A stretch of 57,064 nt of DNA from Gammaproteobacteria bacterium (GTDB taxonomy: Bacteria > Pseudomonadota > Gammaproteobacteria > Xanthomonadales > Wenzhouxiangellaceae): assembly GCA_021772955.1 (NCBI GenBank), contig JAJFKZ010000026.1:1-57064 (forward strand), in the 5' to 3' direction. A model generated the notes under the pieces. That model saw only the letters and a program-made list of their open reading frames with translations, searched no databases and was not told where the DNA came from. Positions 6,179-31,182 of the stretch are shown in pieces. The translations under genes and the position numbers were made by a program. The stretch's first letter is position 1. Each line of letters starts with the position of its first letter.

Positions 6179-6262
6179 ACAGTGTCAGCCGCTGCACATC
6201 TGGCATTGGCGTTATTGCGATCAGCACCGACAGGTGCTCACTGCGCATGCTGATGTCACCGA

Positions 6263-6295
6263 CAGTCATACATTCGTAACATTAATAACTATAAT
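6263..6295 (+). promoter_or_regulatory. Candidate Pho box and -10 upstream of phoB
   Basis: CAGTCAT (6263-6269) N4 TCGTAAC (6274-6280), then a perfect TATAAT (6290-6295) 9 nt further on. Confidence 0.5.
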
Positions 6296-6326
6296 CTGTA
6301 GTAATGTTCATGCAACTGACAGGCTT

Positions 6327-7058
6327 ATGCAGCAGGCCACATCATTGACTGGCCCCACCATCAAAGCCGACGTTTTGATCGTCGATGACGAACCGGCCAT
6401 TCGCGATATGCTGGCCTTCGCGCTGCAGCGAGTCGGCATGACCACACGCAGCGCCGAAGACGCTGAGCATGCACTGCATGCGATCGCCGACAAGCGCCCC
6501 GACATTGTGCTGCTGGACTGGATGATGCCCGGCATCAGCGGGCTGGATCTGGCCCGCCGCCTGCGCCGCGAGGACTTTACCCGGGACCTGCCAATCATCA
6601 TGCTCACCGCACGCGCCGCTGAGGACGATCGCGTGCATGGACTGGATTGCGGTGTTGACGACTACCTCATCAAACCATTTTCACCGCGCGAACTGATCGC
6701 CAGGGTCAAGGCCCTGCTACGCCGCACCAGCCATACTGATGCCGAAGGCTGCATTACTTCCGGGGACATTATCCTCGACGGCGAAAGCCATCAGGTCAAG
6801 GTAAAGGGTCAACTCGTGAGCATGGGCCCAACTGAATACCGCTTGCTGGAATTTTTCATGAGCCATGTCGGCAAGGCCTATAATCGTACTCAATTACTGG
6901 ACCACGTCTGGGGCACCAATGTGTATGTGGAAGAACGCACCGTGGATGTACACATACGACGTTTGCGCGTAGCACTGGGGCAGTACCATGTGGCCCATTA
7001 TATTCAGACTATCCGCGGACACGGCTATCGATTCAGCCCGCATGCAATCAGTAACTGA
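6327..7058 (+). CDS. phoB: Phosphate regulon response regulator PhoB
   Basis: Receiver domain (VLIVDDEP, LLDWMMPG, LTARAAEDD, DYLIKPFSPREL) and OmpR-type winged helix (MGPTEYRLLEFFM, VYVEERTVDVHIRRLR). Start 6327 preferred over the 6234 ORF start, which overlaps the likely promoter. Confidence 0.9.
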   Translation: MQQATSLTGPTIKADVLIVDDEPAIRDMLAFALQRVGMTTRSAEDAEHALHAIADKRPDIVLLDWMMPGISGLDLARRLRREDFTRDLPIIMLTARAAEDDRVHGLDCGVDDYLIKPFSPRELIARVKALLRRTSHTDAEGCITSGDIILDGESHQVKVKGQLVSMGPTEYRLLEFFMSHVGKAYNRTQLLDHVWGTNVYVEERTVDVHIRRLRVALGQYHVAHYIQTIRGHGYRFSPHAISN

Positions 7059-7171
7059 CAAGCATACGGCTGCACAGGAAGCCTGGTCGGTAGCAAACCG
7101 GCATGGGCAGATAAGTGGTGGCATCAATTCAGGGCGGCAATGACAAGACTGCCAGTTACGCGATTCTGATG

Positions 7172-8569
7172 ACCATGGCCAGGTTTCTATCCAGTAAAGC
7201 CAGCAAAATACATCTTACCCTGACCGCAGTGCTGCTGCTTGCCACATCGCTGCTCGGCTTGCTTACTGCTTCGTGGTGGCCGGTGCTCTTGCTGCTGACA
7301 GGCATGTTGATATGGCAGAACTGGCAGCTGCTGAAGCTGGAGCAGCTCATCAGTCACCACGGTATCAATGAGGATCAGCATCGCAGCCTGCAATTGCGCG
7401 GCATTTATCGGAAGATCCAGCAGCGTCTTTTGTTGCTGGAAATGCAGCGCCGACGACAGCGTAAATTACTCAAGAGCACGGTGCGCGAACTGCGATTCAT
7501 CACCGAATCCTTTCCCGAGCCTGCCATCATGCTGGACGATCGCGGCCACCTCATCTGGTTCAACCCTGCGGCGGCAAGACAGCTGCGACTGCGCAAGCCC
7601 GATGATCATGGCCAGCCACTGATCAATATCCTGCGTTACCCCGCTTTTACCGACTGGCTCGCCGAGGGTCTATCTCGCCCGATCGACATCAACAGCCCTG
7701 CCGACAGCAACATCAAGCTCAACGTGCGCCTGTTCATGCTTAACCAAAGGCGCCGTCTGCTGCTTTTTCGTGATGTTACCGAACTGCGCAACGTGGAGCA
7801 GGTGCGGCGTGATTTTGTCGCCAATGTCTCCCACGAACTGCGCACCCCGCTGACCGTGCTGATCGGCTACCTTGAAACCATGCTCGATGAAACTGACCCA
7901 GGCATCCGTATGCTCAGCGAGCGCATGCGGGAGCAGACTGCTGCCATGCGCAATCTGATCGATGACCTGATCGAGATCTCGCGCCTGCAGTCTCAGCCTG
8001 CTGATCACCAACAAGATGTGGTCGATGTCTGTGGCCTGCTCGCGGCGCTGGAAAAACAGGCCGCCAGCCTGAATGACAAGCAACATCAGCTGCACTTTCG
8101 GTGCGACTCACCCCACCATCTGCTGGCCTCCGCCAAGGATCTGGAAAGTGCGTTCGCCAACCTGATCATAAACGCCATTCGCTACACGCCCGCCAAGGGC
8201 CACATACAGGTCAGCTGGGAAATCCACGAGAGTGCGGCGGTGTTTAGTGTCAGTGACGATGGTATAGGCATTCCCAAGGAAGACATTCCGCGTCTGACCG
8301 AACGCTTTTATCGCGTTACCAAGGACCGCTCACGCGCCAGTGGCGGCTCCGGATTGGGTCTGGCCATTGTCAAGCACGTACTCAATGCGCATGATGCACG
8401 CCTGGAAATCAACAGTGAACTGAATCGTGGCAGCACCTTCAGCTGCCTGTTTCCGCTAACGCGACTGGTCGCTGCAGCTGACGCCAAACGGCTGCATGAC
8501 AACAGTAAAATCGCTGGCGAATCCGCTGGCAATGCCGCGCTGCTCAACAACTCTACCGGTGACTTGTGA
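7172..8569 (+). CDS. phoR: Phosphate regulon sensor histidine kinase PhoR
   Basis: N-terminal hydrophobic segments, PAS-like region, FVANVSHELRTPLTVL H-box, GSGLGLAIVKHVL; directly downstream of phoB. ORF can extend to 7115. Confidence 0.9.
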   Translation, partial: TMARFLSSKASKIHLTLTAVLLLATSLLGLLTASWWPVLLLLTGMLIWQNWQLLKLEQLISHHGINEDQHRSLQLRGIYRKIQQRLLLLEMQRRRQRKLLKSTVRELRFITESFPEPAIMLDDRGHLIWFNPAAARQLRLRKPDDHGQPLINILRYPAFTDWLAEGLSRPIDINSPADSNIKLNVRLFMLNQRRRLLLFRDVTELRNVEQVRRDFVANVSHELRTPLTVLIGYLETMLDETDPGIRMLSERMREQTAAMRNLIDDLIEISRLQSQPADHQQDVVDVCGLLAALEKQAASLNDKQHQLHFRCDSPHHLLASAKDLESAFANLIINAIRYTPAKGHIQVSWEIHESAAVFSVSDDGIGIPKEDIPRLTERFYRVTKDRSRASGGSGLGLAIVKHVLNAHDARLEINSELNRGSTFSCLFPLTRLVAAADAKRLHDNSKIAGESAGNAALLNNSTGDL

Positions 8570-14386: not shown

Positions 14387-14412
14387 AAAAGCCGCCCCGA
14401 TAACGGGGCGGC
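14385..14412 (-). terminator. Rho-independent terminator for the secreted beta-helix-like protein gene
   Basis: GCCGCCCC-N6-GGGGCGGC followed on the - strand by TTTTTT; lies just downstream of 14449. Confidence 0.85.
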
Positions 14413-14448: not shown

Positions 14449-16254
14449 TTACTGACCAAGTGCGTTTTGAATGGCATCATCCAGTCCGGTTGTCCAGCTT
14501 TCGATCCAACGATCATTGGCGTCTCTGAAGGCCCCGATATAGGTTGTTTTGTCGAAGAAATCACCTAACGGTGCGACGCCACCATCGATCAGCACGGAAG
14601 ACTGCGAAGGAAAAACAGTGCCGGGCACAAATTGGGGATTAACATCGATCAGATTATTCTGTGCATTCCACCAATCCGAAATCAGGAACGGATCACTGGC
14701 AGTATCTTCAAATGCGCCCTGACCACAGCTACCGATGGCAGAGCCGGCCACGGTCAGGTTACCGCTAAGCGCAGATGGTATCCCACCATTATTGAAGGTT
14801 TCATTATCATCGATGTTGACGCAGCCCTCACCGGAGCCGGAGATAAACATGTTCCAGGCATTGAAGCTAGTACCGGTGCGCAAGCGCCATCCCTCACCTT
14901 CCGGCGCGGTGCCGATCACGGTGATATTGGCCAGGCGCGGATGGGAACGTGGTACAGCACTATTGTTGTTGGGGTTGTTGTCCATTTCAAAGCCATTGTC
15001 ATTGGACAGATCGCCCTGCACAATCAGGCCATACTGGATCGAACCCTGCCAGCCGAGATCGGTGTCCAGACTGTCATCACGGATGTTGCTCATGACAATA
15101 TTGCGCAGATTCACGGTACCGCCGAAAATCTCGATGCCGTCATCAAAACCGGAGTCCGTCTGCACGAATTCGATCACCGTTCCAGCGCCGACGCCAGCCA
15201 GTGACAGTGCATTCAGCTCTTCATCCTGAATAATGGGGTTGCCGGCGAAGCGGATTTGCAGGTATTTGATCAAGCCGCTGCTGTCGTCTACATTGTCTCC
15301 ACCGAACAAGCTACCTGGCAGACCTTCAAATGGCGCATCGCAAGCCGGCAGAGGGGCTGAGCAAGCGTTGGTTGGGGCATTGCCGAATATCGCCAAACCA
15401 CCGACATCACCTGGTGCTGGAGTCGTGCCCGTACCAATATCGGTAGCTGATGTCAATACGATTGGCGCAGTCGGCGTGCCTGCTGCGAAGATTTTTGAGC
15501 CGCGCTCAATAATCAGCGCATCAGAGCCGGAGCTACCGACGATATAGGTGCCTGGCTCGATGGTGACCGTCGCAGCACCGGTGTTATTGGCGCCGCCGAT
15601 GAAAGTCGGGCCATTCATCACCCAGACAATGTTGTTGCTCAGCGTGATGTCCACGTCTGTGTATCTGCCACTGATCTCACAGAATCTGCCATCAAAATCA
15701 GCAGTGGCAAAGGCTGGACACTGCGCAGGCGCTGGCTCCTGGTAGACGCACTGATCACTACCAACGGCTACTATATTACCGAGGCTTGAGCTGCCGCGAT
15801 CCATGTTCACTGTGCCTGAGCCAATATCAGGACCACCATTGTTGTTCCACTGCCAGTTCAAATCCATACTGTCGCATGAATTGAATTTTAGTGTGAACGT
15901 AGCAAAATCTTGAATACGTGTGTCGAAATTACCGTCTGGGCCACCGAAGAAGTTTCCACCACTGGTCAATGCCATCGACACAGCGAATGTATCTTCACCG
16001 GGAACAACACCGCTAAAAGTACCGCCAAGCCAGATCTGGTTGCCGTCATTATCAAAAGTGAATCCGGTTATGAACAGCGCTCCTCGATCGCGCGGACCGG
16101 TTTTAATAAACTGGATGTTCAGGCCGCGCCTGGCGTCAGCATTACTGACTTCGACCCACTGCCCATTAAACTGCTGATTGACCCAAAACGCCGATGCGTT
16201 CATGGCTATCAGCGTAGTAAGCACTATGGCTGACTGAATGACTCTATGCAACAT
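14449..16254 (-). CDS. Secreted protein with parallel beta-helix-like repeats, unknown function
   Basis: Signal peptide (MLHRVIQSAIVLTTLIAMNASAF); Gly/Asn/Ile-rich repetitive C-terminal two-thirds (GGTVNLRNIVMSNIRDDSLD, NGFEMDNNPNNN, RLANITVIGTAPEGEGWRLRTGT). Preceded by a Pho-box array. Confidence 0.8.
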   Translation of the reverse strand: MLHRVIQSAIVLTTLIAMNASAFWVNQQFNGQWVEVSNADARRGLNIQFIKTGPRDRGALFITGFTFDNDGNQIWLGGTFSGVVPGEDTFAVSMALTSGGNFFGGPDGNFDTRIQDFATFTLKFNSCDSMDLNWQWNNNGGPDIGSGTVNMDRGSSSLGNIVAVGSDQCVYQEPAPAQCPAFATADFDGRFCEISGRYTDVDITLSNNIVWVMNGPTFIGGANNTGAATVTIEPGTYIVGSSGSDALIIERGSKIFAAGTPTAPIVLTSATDIGTGTTPAPGDVGGLAIFGNAPTNACSAPLPACDAPFEGLPGSLFGGDNVDDSSGLIKYLQIRFAGNPIIQDEELNALSLAGVGAGTVIEFVQTDSGFDDGIEIFGGTVNLRNIVMSNIRDDSLDTDLGWQGSIQYGLIVQGDLSNDNGFEMDNNPNNNSAVPRSHPRLANITVIGTAPEGEGWRLRTGTSFNAWNMFISGSGEGCVNIDDNETFNNGGIPSALSGNLTVAGSAIGSCGQGAFEDTASDPFLISDWWNAQNNLIDVNPQFVPGTVFPSQSSVLIDGGVAPLGDFFDKTTYIGAFRDANDRWIESWTTGLDDAIQNALGQ

Positions 16255-16294
16255 GATTTACTCCGATGCTATGATGGAAAAACGTACACGACGT

Positions 16295-16350
16295 ATCATC
16301 ACATCACCGCGTTACACATTAATGACAGTCAAATGACAGGTAGATGACAG
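16295..16350 (-). promoter_or_regulatory. Extended Pho-box array and candidate -10 driving the secreted protein gene
   Basis: On the - strand: CTGTCAT CTAC CTGTCAT TTGA CTGTCAT TAAT GTGTAAC (half-sites at 16344-16350, 16333-16339, 16322-16328, 16311-16317; exact 11-bp period), then 10 nt to GATGAT (16295-16300). Confidence 0.85.
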
Positions 16351-16391: not shown

Positions 16392-19300
16392 TCAGAAGCT
16401 GTAATCCAGACTGAGCTTGAATTCCCGGCCGGACTTGTAGCTGCGTTTGATAATCTCTCGTTGACTGAAAACCACGGTTTCATCCAGCAAGTTAGATGCA
16501 TTGAAAGCAACGCGCAAAGGGCCAAACTGTTTGCGCATGACAAAATCAAGAATTGCCGGCGGACTTTCGATGGAATCAGGGATACTTTGAATACCGGCTG
16601 TGGATATTCTTGAGCCTTCCTTGTTGAAAGACAGCGTGGCATCAAGCTCGTGCCGGAGGTTTTCATATCCCAGCACCAGATTGATGATGGAATCGGACTG
16701 ACCCTGCAACTTGCGCACCTGGTTGGTTTGCGCTACTGCATCTGCACCAAGATCCACCTCTGAGTCAATCAGGGAAAAATTGCCAGAAAAATAAAAATTA
16801 TCCAGTCTGGTCCACAGCCTGGACAAGCCGAAACGAAACTCGAACTCAACACCGAGCAAATCAGCGTTATCCGCATTTTCCAGCGTTGCCAGGTCAGATG
16901 TACTGGTCGGAAGAAATTGCAATTCAATCGGTTTATCGATGGTCTTGTAGAAGCCGCTGAAGGATATGAATTCATCATCGGCAAAAAACCAGTCCCAGCG
17001 TATGTCGTAGTTTTTCAGGTCACTTTGCACCAGATCAGTGTTACCGATAACTTCACTGTCGATGGTTGGATCATTGAATGGTGCCGCGGCAAATTCACGA
17101 AACTGCGGTCGGATGACAGACTCGGAAAATGCCAGCTTGATCTGATGCTGATCGTTGATAGTCCAGATCGTTGTAACAGCCGGCAAATAATCGGTGTTGA
17201 CGATTTCGCCGCGCAGCTCGGCCGGATTGGCCACGAACGGCTCAAACGAAGTCACTACCTGCTCGTTGTTCTCGACGCGCACACCACCATCAACACGCAC
17301 CGTATCCGCGATAGTCCAGTCGCCACCAAAGAAATAGCTGCTCAGGCGCTGATCCGCAAGGTAAAAATCGGTCGACAAGGTGCCTTCTCGCAGCTGGAAA
17401 CCATTGTCCCCGATGAAGTCATCCGACAATATTGCCTCCAGCGAGTCCATTGTCAGAATGTCCGGATTCTGCGCATCAGGCCCCCTGGCAGAAAATTGAA
17501 ACCGGCGCAGACTGGAGTCACGGTTACGATCATTGATGGAACCGCCCGCATATAAACCCAGATCCAGCCAATCATTCAGCTGCATATCCAGCTGTATGCG
17601 GCCACCAGCGTATTTGGCTAGTTCATCCAGCTTGGTGAAACGCAGCAGATTGTTGTCCGCAAATCGCGAAAAACTGAATTTCCCCGGAGACACCTCATCA
17701 AAGCGCGCTTCGCGCCGATTCGGTTCACGAAATTCAGAGGTGTTGCGAGACACCCCCCAGTCGATCATCAGTCCCTGCAGCCGCGAAAATTCGTGGTGAC
17801 CGGTCAATTGATTGATGAACGCTTCGTTCTCGGTCCAGCGCAACCTGATGTTGCGTCGATTAAAACCGTCCCGGAACGAAAAGCCTTCCGTGATGCGGTT
17901 GTCATTCAGCGACTGACGTACCAGCAGCATGGTGTATTTCAACAGTTGACTGCCATCCGTGCGTCCGATTTCGGTACTCAAAAAGCTGCTGGTCTCAACT
18001 TGTTCATTGGTTACAAACAGCTCCAGATCTGACAACAGCTGCAGCTCTTCGCCACTGCTCACTGCCACTTGCCGCCGTATTTCGCGCTGGGTATCCCAGT
18101 CCTGGTTATAACCGAGTGAACCGGTAAAACCCCAGCGCCAGGCATCACCGATCTGATAAGAATCACCACCCGCCAGATCAATGCCAAACGACGGCGGGGC
18201 CGATTCGCGTTGAATATCCCAGACATTGGAGAGATCTTCGCCCAGCCGCTCGATTTCGGTCCCGGTGAGCCCATTTTGATTGAACGGGCTGGCACGCGTC
18301 AAACGAGTATCTGCGATCACGTCGAAAGAATCCGGAAGAGCACGAGCACCGTTGTCAAAGCCGAGAAAATCCGTCGGACTGCCCGGCGAAGTCAAACCGG
18401 TTTTGAATGTGGTTCTGCTGTCATAGGTGCCGGAAACACCAATGCTCAAAAATCCCGTTTCCGGAATGCCATTGGTGCGCAGGTTAACCGTACCACCACC
18501 AAACTCGCCTGGCATATCCGGGCTCAAGGTTTTCTGCACACTGATTGACTTAATCACGCTGGTGGGGAAGATGTCCAGCGGAATCACATTGCGGGTCGGA
18601 TCCGGGCTGGGTACCGGCATGCCGTTGATCAACGTGCTGGAGTAGCGCTCTCCCAGGCCACGAACAAACACAAACTTGCCGCCGACCAGGCTCAGACCAG
18701 GCACGCGCTTCAAGGCGGAGGCGGCATCGCTGTCGCCAGTCTTGGCGAACTGCTCGGCACTGAGAATATCTGCAACCGAAGAACTTTGCCGCCGCTCGTC
18801 CAACACCGCTGCCAGACTGCCCTCGACATAGGGTTCAACCACCACGTATTCCGGCAGTTCAGAACCGGCCGACGACAGCTTCAGATCCTGCGTGGTGGTT
18901 GCGCCGCTGCTGACCGGGATGTTTTCCAGTGTGCGGGTGTTGTAGCGCGACGCCAACACCGACAAAGCGTATGTGCCGGGTGGCAGTTCGAAGTAGTAAC
19001 GACCATCAGCATCGGTCACCTGTTCGTCTGCCACCCCGCTGACAAACACACGTACACCAGCGATAGCCTTGCCATCTTCAGCGGAACTGATCTGGCCTTG
19101 CAACAAACCGGGATCGGCATCGACATCGGCACTGCGGGCAGCAGCAGGATCAATCTTGTCCGGATTGGAGCTCTCTATGTCAATGAACGGCATCGATTGA
19201 TCGGCAAAAAAATTGACCAGAATCTGCACCAACTCAGATTCGGTGAAGCGAAATTCGCGTATCAGCGGCGGCTGCCCCGGCATGCTCACCTGCAACTGAT

Positions 19301-19595
19301 AGGTTCCGGGCTCGACGCTAACTTGCAACCTGCCCGAAGCGTCGGTCTGACCGATCCCACGACCGTCCAGCATCACTTCAATATCGGCCCGATGATTGGT
19401 CTCCAGAAACACAAACAGGCTCAAGGACGCAGACGCTGATGATTCCGAGGCTGCAGCAGTCGGTTCGGACTGCTGCGCCGGTGCGGGCTGGCAGACCAGC
19501 AACAACACCAATACAGCAAACAGCTGGCGATGGATAGACTTTAATGCAGGCATGATCGGATATAACGGGGTGTGCGCAAGCGCGCTCAGGCGCAT
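16392..19595 (-). CDS. TonB-dependent outer-membrane receptor with N-terminal carboxypeptidase-regulatory-like repeats
   Basis: Plug motifs (SVADILSAEQFAKTGDSDAASALKRVPGLSLVGGKFVFVRGLGERYSSTLINGMPVPSPDPTRNVIPLDIFPTSVIKSISVQKTLSPDMPGEFGGGTVNLRT), long beta-barrel, C-terminal aromatic residue (SLDYSF). Start may be internal (MPALKSIHRQLF). Confidence 0.92.
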   Translation of the reverse strand: MRLSALAHTPLYPIMPALKSIHRQLFAVLVLLLVCQPAPAQQSEPTAAASESSASASLSLFVFLETNHRADIEVMLDGRGIGQTDASGRLQVSVEPGTYQLQVSMPGQPPLIREFRFTESELVQILVNFFADQSMPFIDIESSNPDKIDPAAARSADVDADPGLLQGQISSAEDGKAIAGVRVFVSGVADEQVTDADGRYYFELPPGTYALSVLASRYNTRTLENIPVSSGATTTQDLKLSSAGSELPEYVVVEPYVEGSLAAVLDERRQSSSVADILSAEQFAKTGDSDAASALKRVPGLSLVGGKFVFVRGLGERYSSTLINGMPVPSPDPTRNVIPLDIFPTSVIKSISVQKTLSPDMPGEFGGGTVNLRTNGIPETGFLSIGVSGTYDSRTTFKTGLTSPGSPTDFLGFDNGARALPDSFDVIADTRLTRASPFNQNGLTGTEIERLGEDLSNVWDIQRESAPPSFGIDLAGGDSYQIGDAWRWGFTGSLGYNQDWDTQREIRRQVAVSSGEELQLLSDLELFVTNEQVETSSFLSTEIGRTDGSQLLKYTMLLVRQSLNDNRITEGFSFRDGFNRRNIRLRWTENEAFINQLTGHHEFSRLQGLMIDWGVSRNTSEFREPNRREARFDEVSPGKFSFSRFADNNLLRFTKLDELAKYAGGRIQLDMQLNDWLDLGLYAGGSINDRNRDSSLRRFQFSARGPDAQNPDILTMDSLEAILSDDFIGDNGFQLREGTLSTDFYLADQRLSSYFFGGDWTIADTVRVDGGVRVENNEQVVTSFEPFVANPAELRGEIVNTDYLPAVTTIWTINDQHQIKLAFSESVIRPQFREFAAAPFNDPTIDSEVIGNTDLVQSDLKNYDIRWDWFFADDEFISFSGFYKTIDKPIELQFLPTSTSDLATLENADNADLLGVEFEFRFGLSRLWTRLDNFYFSGNFSLIDSEVDLGADAVAQTNQVRKLQGQSDSIINLVLGYENLRHELDATLSFNKEGSRISTAGIQSIPDSIESPPAILDFVMRKQFGPLRVAFNASNLLDETVVFSQREIIKRSYKSGREFKLSLDYSF

Positions 19596-28076: not shown

Positions 28077-30349
28077 GATTGGTATCGCTTTCTGAGCCGC
28101 AACCTGAAAAACTCAGCCACCGAGTTCATCACAAAAGTAAGACCGAACAACACCAGTGCCGCGAACAACAGCACCTGAAAGTGCATTGAAGCTGGATTTG
28201 CTGCCGACATTTCACTGGCCAGTGTCGGCGCAATGGCCTGCATGCCACGCAACACCGACGACGCCATGATCGGCGAATTGCTGCTGACCATCAGCACGAT
28301 CATGGTTTCGCCCAAAGCCCGGCCGAAGCCGATCAGTACGGCAGCCAGAATCCCGGCGCCGGCCGCCGGCACCATGACCTTCCATACCGTTTGCCAATGA
28401 CTAGCGCCCAGCGCCAGGGAGGCCAGTCGCAGGCGTTCCGGCACCGCGGCCAATGCATCTTCAACCAGCGCAAAAATACTGGGGGCAATACCCAGCCCCA
28501 GCACCAGACCAACCAGCAGGGCATTGTGCAGGTCATAGGTCCAGCCCAGGCCGGTTTCCAGCCAGGCACTGAAACTGCCATTGAAGAACAACCATTGCAG
28601 TAACATCCCCAGCCCCACCAGCGCCATCAGCAGCAGTAAAAACAGCGCATATTGCGCATAGGGCCGCACCTTGGCTGCTACGCGTTGCCGCAAAGAGCTG
28701 GCCCAGTAATAGCCCGTGAGCATCAACAACAGCGGGGTCAAAAGCAGCAGCAGCAAGAAGCTTAGCAGCTGATTTTGCAGCACCGGCGCCAGCCACAGAG
28801 CGCCAATAAAACCCAGCGTCACCGTGGGCAGCGATTCCAGTGTTTCCACCACCGGCTTGATGCGTTCGCGCCATCGCCGTGGCAGCATCAGTGCCGTGTA
28901 AATGGCGCCCAGCAATGCCAGCGGCAAACCGATCAACAGCCCGAGCGTGGCCGCCTTGAGAGTGCCAAACAGCAATGGTACCAAGCTCAAGCGCGGCGGC
29001 GACTGGCTGCTGGCCTGCGGCTGCCACTGCCACTGCGGTTGTACCTGACCCTGATAGTACTGGGGTTGCCACAAACTGCTCGCGGTCACTGCAGGCGAGG
29101 TGTCGAAGGTCCAGCTATGCAGCGTGTTCTGAGCATCGACCAGCAGCAGATAGCCAGCCTGCACGGCGACCAGCTGTCTGCGGTCGGTGTTGGGAGCCAT
29201 TTCATCACCGGCGCTCACCGTGGTATCAATACCGGTTTGCCAGACCGGCTTGCTCTGCGACAGATAAAACAGACGCAGTTGCGAGTCCGCACTGCAGGCA
29301 AGCCAACGTTGCGTGTTGTCGACCGCCACAGCGTGCAGCGTGTCATGGCCACAGACGTACTCACGAATCGGCACCAGCAGGCCATCTGCTGTGCGGCTGT
29401 ATTCTTGCATACTGCCTTGCGCAGAAGCTGCCAGTACACCGGCCTGCGGCATGACCATCAGCGCCACTAACGCCCCTGCTGCCTGGCCTGCATAGGCCAG
29501 CACATCCGGCTCATCCGCCAACGTCGAGGCGTGCAATAACATGCCATCACTGAGCCCGAGGTAAAACCCACCCGCCTGATCGGCCAACAGACTGCTGATT
29601 TGTAACGTGGACCAGTCCAGTTGCTGGCTGCTGCTGCGTTGACCCGCCACGATTGGCGTATAGGCTGTTATTGCATCGACATCCAGAGCAGCCAGCAGCT
29701 GCAGTTCAAACGGCTGGCCTGCTTGTGGCAGTTGCAAGCTGTGCAGCAGCAGCTTGTTGCCGCGCCCGGTGTTCCACAGTGTCAACAGCTGCTGCCGTTC
29801 GCCTGCCAACGACAACGACGCCTGCAACGGTATTGCCGCAGCGGTATCGAAACCTGCATCAGCATCGGGAAACTTGAACCATTGAACTTCAGCGCTGGCC
29901 ATTTGCGATCCGGCCTCAGCAGCACTGGCTGGCCAGCGCAAATAGCCGACCCCGGTCGCAGCATCGATGATCAGGATGTCGCGCTCACCAAGCTCGACGT
30001 ACACCGGTTTGCGCGCCTGCGACAGCTCCGCCGAGGGGGCCAGATCCAATGTCATCAGCGGCTCACCGCTATCAGCATGCAGAGCCTGCAACTGCAAGTC
30101 ATGCATGATCATCACGCTGGCCTCAGTAGCGACTGCAAGACCAACGAAACTCGGCACGAAGTCCATGGCCAGCTTACTTGCAGCAGTCTCGCTGAGCTGA
30201 CGCGGCTGCAACAACGCGATCATCGACAGCAGCAAATACCCCATCAGCAGCAAGGCCGTAGCCGTCACCAGCAGCGCTGCGGCGCCGGTGGCCATTGCAC
30301 CCAGCTGGTCAATACGGCGACGGCGTTGGTGAAGTGTGTCTGTGCTCAA
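28073..30349 (-). CDS. pstC: Phosphate ABC transporter permease PstC, with large N-terminal periplasmic domain
   Basis: VVETLESLPTVTLGFIGALWLAP, RLASLALGASHWQTVWKVMVPAAGAGILAAVLIGFGRALGETMIVLM; TTG start at 30349 plausible. Confidence 0.92.
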   Translation of the reverse strand: MSTDTLHQRRRRIDQLGAMATGAAALLVTATALLLMGYLLLSMIALLQPRQLSETAASKLAMDFVPSFVGLAVATEASVMIMHDLQLQALHADSGEPLMTLDLAPSAELSQARKPVYVELGERDILIIDAATGVGYLRWPASAAEAGSQMASAEVQWFKFPDADAGFDTAAAIPLQASLSLAGERQQLLTLWNTGRGNKLLLHSLQLPQAGQPFELQLLAALDVDAITAYTPIVAGQRSSSQQLDWSTLQISSLLADQAGGFYLGLSDGMLLHASTLADEPDVLAYAGQAAGALVALMVMPQAGVLAASAQGSMQEYSRTADGLLVPIREYVCGHDTLHAVAVDNTQRWLACSADSQLRLFYLSQSKPVWQTGIDTTVSAGDEMAPNTDRRQLVAVQAGYLLLVDAQNTLHSWTFDTSPAVTASSLWQPQYYQGQVQPQWQWQPQASSQSPPRLSLVPLLFGTLKAATLGLLIGLPLALLGAIYTALMLPRRWRERIKPVVETLESLPTVTLGFIGALWLAPVLQNQLLSFLLLLLLTPLLLMLTGYYWASSLRQRVAAKVRPYAQYALFLLLLMALVGLGMLLQWLFFNGSFSAWLETGLGWTYDLHNALLVGLVLGLGIAPSIFALVEDALAAVPERLRLASLALGASHWQTVWKVMVPAAGAGILAAVLIGFGRALGETMIVLMVSSNSPIMASSVLRGMQAIAPTLASEMSAANPASMHFQVLLFAALVLFGLTFVMNSVAEFFRLRLRKRYQS

Positions 30350-30363
30350 AACAAAAGCTGTCC

Positions 30364-30397
30364 AGTATGTTTTGGAATTGTGACAGGTAGATGACAG
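30364..30397 (-). promoter_or_regulatory. Pho box and -10 upstream of pstC
   Basis: - strand: CTGTCAT CTAC CTGTCAC (30380-30397), 10 nt, CATACT (30364-30369). Confidence 0.85.
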
Positions 30398-30504
30398 TCA
30401 TCAGCCGAATTGCTGACTTGCAATGACTGCTGAAACTGACCAAACTATGCCATTGATCAAGGTTATCATATCGAACCCTTCATGAAATTGGCAGGCTAAA
30501 ATTC

Positions 30505-31182
30505 ATGGCCATTAACTATCTCTCTGGCATCTTCGGGCCATCCTTGCTGAAACCACTGCAGCAGCATATGGATGCTGTTATCGCTTGTGTCAGCCTGTTG
30601 CCAGAATTGATTGTGAACTTGAATGAGAACAATCAGCAACAGGCGGCGTTGCTGCATGAACAGATCATCGCGCACGAACGTCGGGGCGATGAACTGAAAG
30701 CCGTGCTGCGCGAGCATCTCAGTTACAGTCTGCTGCTGCCGATTCCGCGGCGGGATTTGCTGGAAATCCTGCAGGTGCAGGACAAGTTGGCCAACCGGGC
30801 GCGCGATCTGGCCGGTCTGGTACGGCGCCGTGATCTGCGCTTTCCCGAAGACATGCGCGAGGAGTATCTGCGCTTTCTGCGCTGCTGCGTCAACAGCGCT
30901 GTTCAGGCGCAAAGCTCCATCCATGAACTGGATGAATTGTTCGAAACCGGTTTTCGTGGCCAGGTTGCCGAAATCATGTCCCGCTTTCTCAGCAATCTGG
31001 ATGCATTGGAAACCGAGGCCGACCAGCTGCAATCAGAGCTGGAGGCCAAGGTCATGCGGAAGGAACCCAGCCTGCCGGCTGTTGAAGTGATGTTTCTCTA
31101 CCGCGTACTGTCCTGGACCGGCAACATTGCCGATTACAGTGATCGTATCGGCAGTTCGCTGCATTTGCTAGTCACTCGTTAA
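30505..31182 (+). CDS. DUF47/PhoU-like phosphate transport regulator
   Basis: MAINYLSGIFGPSLLKPLQQHM, HERRGDELKAVLREHLSYSLLLPIPRRDLLEILQVQDKLANRA; next to pit. Confidence 0.9.
   Translation: MAINYLSGIFGPSLLKPLQQHMDAVIACVSLLPELIVNLNENNQQQAALLHEQIIAHERRGDELKAVLREHLSYSLLLPIPRRDLLEILQVQDKLANRARDLAGLVRRRDLRFPEDMREEYLRFLRCCVNSAVQAQSSIHELDELFETGFRGQVAEIMSRFLSNLDALETEADQLQSELEAKVMRKEPSLPAVEVMFLYRVLSWTGNIADYSDRIGSSLHLLVTR

Follow-up and report, generated by a model that had tools for sequence, protein, structure and literature searches.

In two published systems, bacteria starved of phosphate secrete ElpS-type proteins, which rank with the most strongly induced and the most abundant of their secreted proteins (PMC2996285, PMC8115612). 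In Caulobacter crescentus, elpS (cc0170) is followed by the gene for the TonB receptor cc0171 and then by gspC-N, and the cells produce ElpS only when starved of phosphate, in contrast to cc0171, which is constitutive (PMC2996285). Overexpression of elpS increased the alkaline phosphatase activity in Caulobacter supernatants; deletion of the gene left the activity unchanged, the purified protein had no phosphatase activity, and that work showed no role in uptake (PMC2996285). In Flavobacterium, the lipoproteins FI, FII and FIII, stated to be 31–36% identical to ElpS, are secreted and induced by phosphate depletion; FI and FII reside beside TonB transporters (PUSIII/PUSIV), FII lies within the phoBR cluster, and Lidbury et al. 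modelled these ElpS relatives on polygalacturonase (PMC8115612).

We analysed a stretch of 57,064 nucleotides from a gammaproteobacterium of the family Wenzhouxiangellaceae (hereafter, the window), in which a gene for a secreted protein is preceded by a tandem array on the minus strand at 16350–16295. Read 5' to 3', the array begins with three exact copies of CTGTCAT, unit 1 (16344–16350, promoter-distal), unit 2 (16333–16339) and unit 3 (16322–16328), which are separated by ctac and ttga. After taat follows the degenerate, promoter-proximal unit 4, GTGTAAC (16311–16317), so that the spacing is exactly 11 bp three times over. A -10-like hexamer, GATGAT (16295–16300), lies 10 nt past unit 4, behind gcggtgatgt. 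The sequence-only reading had described precisely these elements, and its coordinates hold, with the minus strand implied. GATGAT is indeed present but is a poor -10 hexamer, as it lacks the first T of TANNNT, even though its distance from unit 4 is the optimal one across the secreted-protein family. The transcription start would be expected near 16288.

The array far exceeds what is expected by chance. It matches the CTGTCAT units at 21 of 21 positions over three units and at 25 of 28 over four, whereas the best values among 300 dinucleotide shuffles of the 57-kb window were 17/21 and 22/28, respectively, and none of the 300 equalled the array. Allowing at most one mismatch, the 2.63-Mb assembly contains no more than four copies of the pattern CTGTCATN4CTGTCAT: two lie in the array, one precedes pstC, and one is found on the small contig C24. 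The C24 copy lies on the strand opposite to a repeat-protein gene, directly past where that gene ends, and was taken as non-functional. In a two-unit position-weight scan of the kind that the sequence-only reading had proposed, both pairs of exact units came out on top of the window with 22.6 bits, ahead of the boxes before pstC (21.2) and DUF3450 (18.8); the next-best site outside these three scored 12.6. With four units, the array scored 37.3 against 17.7 for pstC, which bears out the claim that it is the strongest Pho array of the window.

The units resemble the E. coli Pho box in their 7-nt CTGTCAT type, their 11-bp period, their orientation with the gene and their position upstream of the -10 (PMC4415409). 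Unlike in the E. coli box, four contiguous units are the best fit across the family (see below), although some promoters of E. coli also contain more than a single box, such as ugp with its multiple PHO boxes (PMC4415409). The gene neighbourhood supports the reading as PhoB sites, because phoB, phoR and pstC-pstA-pstB-phoU are all encoded in the same window. The plus strand carries phoB (6234–7058; TIGR02154 with 323 bits against a cut-off of 296), phoR (7115–8569) and genes for a PstS-family protein, ppk, ppx and an epmA-like gene. In the order of transcription, the minus strand encodes a pstC-like permease (28073–30349; PstC is the best model, under its cut-off), a pstA-like permease (26457–28076), a pstB-like ABC ATPase assigned by its position between pstA and phoU (25566–26381), and phoU (24827–25534). 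The PstA-like (539 aa) and PstC-like (758 aa) proteins are far longer than their E. coli counterparts, and in each a long N-terminal extension precedes the permease domain.

Downstream of phoU follow, on the same strand, the genes of an energiser operon: a DUF3450 protein (TtpB-like, the first gene, 23903–24754), a long MotA/TolQ/ExbB-domain protein (TtpC-like, 22479–23906), ExbB (21883–22482), ExbD (21471–21881), TonB (20827–21471) and a TPR protein in the TtpD position (19586–20803). This order matches that of the Vibrio TonB2 and TonB3 systems, TtpB-TtpC-ExbB-ExbD-TonB-TtpD, whose TtpB is likewise a DUF3450 protein (PMC6957404). As in Vibrio TonB3, an outer-membrane receptor belongs to the operon (PMC6957404), here a TonB-dependent receptor with CarboxypepD_reg, plug and OMP_b-brl_3 domains (16392–19595). 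Vibrio TonB2 serves Fur-controlled iron uptake (PMC6957404); the operon in the window differs in being preceded by a Pho-type box and linked to pst-phoU. This two-unit box, CTGTAACAGCTTTGTCAT (24801–24818, minus strand), lies in the 72-bp gap between phoU and DUF3450, 10 nt before TAGCAT. The pstC box, CTGTCATCTACCTGTCAC (30380–30397, minus strand), precedes CATACT by 10 nt, in the intergenic region between pstC and the divergent PhoU_div-Pit genes. A third Pho site is the array before the secreted-protein gene. The larger unit of receptor, dedicated TonB energiser and pst-phoU was absent from the sequence-only reading. A terminator search returned no site between the receptor gene and the secreted-protein gene, so read-through may add transcription; a strong intrinsic terminator-like hairpin follows the secreted-protein gene (14391–14412, minus strand).

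The secreted protein comprises 601 residues (14449–16254, minus strand; ATG at 16254, with a Shine-Dalgarno-like GGAG 6 nt before it). It starts with a Sec signal peptide of the AxA type (..NASA/F..), and reading by eye revealed no lipobox cysteine at the N-terminus. Structure prediction gave a parallel β-helix core at approximately residues 180–580 with high confidence and an N-terminal β domain with low confidence. Sequence searches of Pfam, NCBIfam and PDB assigned no family, and Foldseek returned only weak β-helix matches, none to the PDB reaching E ≤ 0.001. Seven acidic residues (D371, D372, E375, D393, D394, D397 and E423) are invariant in 18 homologues and readily suggest themselves as a candidate binding or catalytic site. 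The invariant DD(G)xE and DDxxD motifs within residues 371–397 are 22 residues apart, about one turn of the β-helix. The arrangement of the aspartates between D371 and D397 resembles that of polygalacturonases, a likeness without sequence-profile support. Many of the relatives are tandem fusions with two or three β-helix cores per reading frame (loci L079, L082, L089, L095, L097, L110, L117 and others).

We regard the protein as ElpS-related because of the elpS-receptor-gsp gene order found around homologues and the parallel with the ElpS-related FI/FII/FIII proteins of Flavobacterium. The earlier description as an uncharacterised secreted protein thus stands with respect to the Sec-type signal peptide but not with respect to being uncharacterised. 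The β-helix core is related to that of ElpS as judged through homologues in the elpS-receptor-gsp order, and a TonB receptor adjoins the gene in both cases. Unlike ElpS, the protein lacks a lipobox and carries an extra N-terminal domain, no gsp genes adjoin its gene, and the gene is linked instead to a dedicated TonB/ExbB/ExbD/DUF3450 operon and to pst-phoU. We did not assign it to ElpS proper, since a lipobox and linkage to type II secretion (T2SS) genes were both looked for and both found to be absent. A T2SS is encoded in the same genome on another contig, C113. The best gspE match on contig C61 appears from its gene order to be a type IV pilus ATPase, so contig C113 was taken as the T2SS. 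The Flavobacterium proteins, compared by description only, differ from the window protein in being lipoproteins of Bacteroidetes, and the available part of the article describes neither PhoB-box arrays nor a dedicated TonB operon for them (PMC8115612).

Sampling 369 genomes of the class yielded homologues of the secreted protein in 29, and sampling 299 of the order yielded matches in 127, many of the weaker order-level ones covering the N-terminal domain only. A wider collection scan, run with an alignment of a subset of the homologues since all 18 together proved too diverse, gave named loci that include Gamma- and Alphaproteobacteria, Myxococcota, Acidobacteriota and Poribacteria. A receptor homologue is present in 71 of the 80 named loci and nearly always adjoins the secreted-protein gene or occupies the opposite end of the same energiser operon. 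Within 10 kb, on contigs that were often short, the 80 loci contained PhoB in 17 cases, PhoR in 12 and PstB in 10. The order homologue-receptor-gspE-gspF-gspG, all in the same direction, recurs in 12 loci (L084, L088, L093, L099, L113, L120, L121, L125, L127, L132, L141 and L143), and the homologues in elpS-receptor-gsp loci show 33–37% identity. A tree of 119 cores separated T2SS-linked from energiser-linked members with few changes (support of 90 by a quick method), even though the split is not absolute because three weakly matching Alteromonadales DUF3450 loci fall on the T2SS side.

The promoter is conserved along with the family. Using a two-unit matrix built from the known consensus, with p values from shuffles, we found a box at p ≤ 0.02 in 49 of 107 upstream regions of the secreted-protein family, where about 2 were expected, and in 13 of 23 DUF3450 operons. 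The receptor genes served as a built-in negative control and gave 4 of 93, with the caveat that their upstream regions are often coding. A TANNNT hexamer lies exactly 10 nt past the box in 35% of 43 non-redundant promoters and at all other offsets between 0 and 31 in 0–7%; its position played no part in the selection of boxes. By the two-unit score alone, only 6 of 29 order-level relatives reached p ≤ 0.02. As this score missed many relatives with four-unit arrays clear by eye, we made a four-unit model within a combined scheme of n units at an 11-bp period, 10 nt and TANNNT. For the 128 upstream regions of the secreted-protein family, the mean z for n = 1 to 6 was 1.79, 3.12, 3.60, 4.14, 3.78 and 3.39, whereas the DUF3450 operons peaked at n = 2 (mean z of 3.92) and the receptors stayed at or below 0.5 throughout. 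With n = 4, 85 of the 128 regions scored above all 60 of their shuffles, against 10 of 93 for the receptors. A period of 11 gave a z of 4.18 and periods of 8–10 and 12–14 gave 0.39–0.69, and the best spacer between the last unit and TANNNT was 10 nt. These family counts include related species. The matrices came from the known consensus and were partly softened once some family members had been viewed, which leaves the four-unit fit short of full independence; this softening has no bearing on the period and spacer controls.

The design of four units at 11 bp, 10 nt and TANNNT thus scores best before the secreted-protein family, which is a new observation. Degenerate proximal units of the form xTGxAAC/T, such as unit 4 in the window, are common in the family. 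The sequence-only interpretation as a PhoB-type promoter gains from this conservation before homologues, and from the induction of the studied relatives, ElpS and FI/FII/FIII, by phosphate depletion. The occurrence of Pho boxes before the secreted-protein genes and almost none before the receptors parallels Caulobacter, with its induced ElpS and constitutive cc0171 (PMC2996285).

The comparison with a genome of the same genus (G443) reveals how the secreted protein and the receptor behave within an otherwise stable cluster. G443 contains the same cluster, with identities of 86% for PhoB, 81% for Ppk, 89% for TonB, 91% for ExbD, 90% for ExbB and 87% for PhoU. Over the energiser and pho genes the identity ranges from 54 to 91%, whereas it falls to 44% for the receptor and 40% for the secreted protein. 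The secreted-protein gene of G443 lies between phoU and DUF3450 in reversed orientation (loci L181/L182) and has its own four-unit array with TAAGAT, so the four-unit promoter is retained in either gene arrangement. The tree of the long ExbB protein places the window and G443 as sisters (100/99). The receptor tree and the secreted-protein tree agree in joining G443 to another locus, L064 (100/100), with the window outside on a branch of about 1.0. From the identity gap and the incongruence of the trees, we conclude that the receptor and the secreted protein either diverged fast or were replaced together, and this joint divergence supports the notion of a working pair.

We consider it probable, at roughly 70%, that 16350–16295 is a PhoB-activated sigma-70 promoter and that the ElpS-related protein and the TonB receptor serve phosphorus acquisition. 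The array, its spacing, the gene neighbourhood, the family-wide promoter conservation and the joint divergence of the pair are the parts of this proposal read from the sequences. The regulatory steps are modelled on E. coli PhoB: upon phosphate starvation, PhoR would phosphorylate PhoB, about four monomers of which would bind the four 11-bp units head-to-tail, substitute for a -35 element and bring RNA polymerase to the -10 hexamer ten nucleotides downstream. The product, a predicted β-helix protein, would be exported by Sec and would probably cross the outer membrane, the likely route being the type II secretion system on contig C113. There, it could work with the neighbouring TonB-dependent receptor, presumably powered by the dedicated TonB/ExbB/ExbD/DUF3450 complex, in capturing or releasing a phosphorus-containing substrate, and phosphorus would thereby be brought to the periplasm for the Pst system. 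The recurring four-unit design and the usual TonB receptor neighbour point to a common phosphorus-scavenging system. It is a tentative and wider proposition, to which we give rather less than even odds as a whole, that the secreted protein and the receptor form an exchangeable pair that sets the specificity of a phosphorus-import system of the outer membrane, controlled by PhoB and powered by TonB, that this system has spread over Proteobacteria, Myxococcota, Acidobacteriota and Poribacteria, and that the four-unit PhoB array is fixed to the secreted-protein gene wherever the gene is placed in the cluster.

Other functions under PhoB control deserve consideration. The protein might be a glycan-active β-helix enzyme, GH28- or lyase-like, that frees a polymer-bound substrate, with phosphorus involved only indirectly. 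The confidently predicted β-helix core would suit such an enzyme, as would the invariant residues D371/D372 and, 22 residues on, D393/D394/D397, the weak Foldseek match to a polygalacturonase and the polygalacturonase-based models reported for the Flavobacterium relatives (PMC8115612). We nevertheless regard it as unlikely, since no Pfam glycosidase matched even at E ≤ 1, the PDB search was negative at the threshold given above, and the adjoining genes are phosphate genes rather than carbohydrate enzymes. The published idea for ElpS, by which the protein would be a phosphatase helper raising extracellular phosphatase activity with a separate role for the receptor, draws on the effect of overexpression in Caulobacter, but the deletion had no such effect and the purified protein was inactive (PMC2996285). 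Moreover, no phosphatase gene adjoins the secreted-protein gene in the window, and the receptor homologue that accompanies the gene in most loci seems to diverge or move with it, all of which makes a helper function quite improbable here.

The repeats themselves could also be bound by another regulator of the OmpR/PhoB type or be a functionless chance array. OmpR-family regulators bind tandem repeats similar to Pho units, which lends the former some plausibility. Against both stand the shuffles, none of which equalled the array, the identity of the consensus with that of E. coli PhoB (PMC4415409), the family-wide conservation with its specificity for one period, and the linkage to phoB and pst, so we hold either to be very improbable.

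The ElpS-related family as such was already known; the family-wide four-unit promoter and the paired divergence of receptor and secreted protein are what is new here. Neither was found in the literature searched, which was mostly without subscription journals, so that this falls short of proving novelty. The locus joins the non-lipoprotein form to a putative PhoB promoter of four units, a receptor as its likely partner, a TonB energiser of its own and a pst operon, and leads to the testable proposal that phosphorus compounds are actively imported across the outer membrane. The promoter signature (four 11-bp units, 10 nt, TANNNT) could be used to find such genes in unannotated genomes.

Two further sites in the window may be of regulatory relevance. 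A 155-bp gap (30349–30505) with one Pho box separates pstC from the divergent PhoU_div-Pit pair, and this one site may regulate both low-affinity and high-affinity phosphate import. The listed start of phoB is probably about 26–32 codons too early, with the true start at the ATG at 6311 or 6329. Inside the listed 5' end, at 6263–6295 on the plus strand, a Pho-like pair, CAGTCAT-acat-TCGTAAC, is followed after 9 nt by a perfect TATAAT. The pair, through which phoB may be autoregulated, is kept in the same-genus genome.
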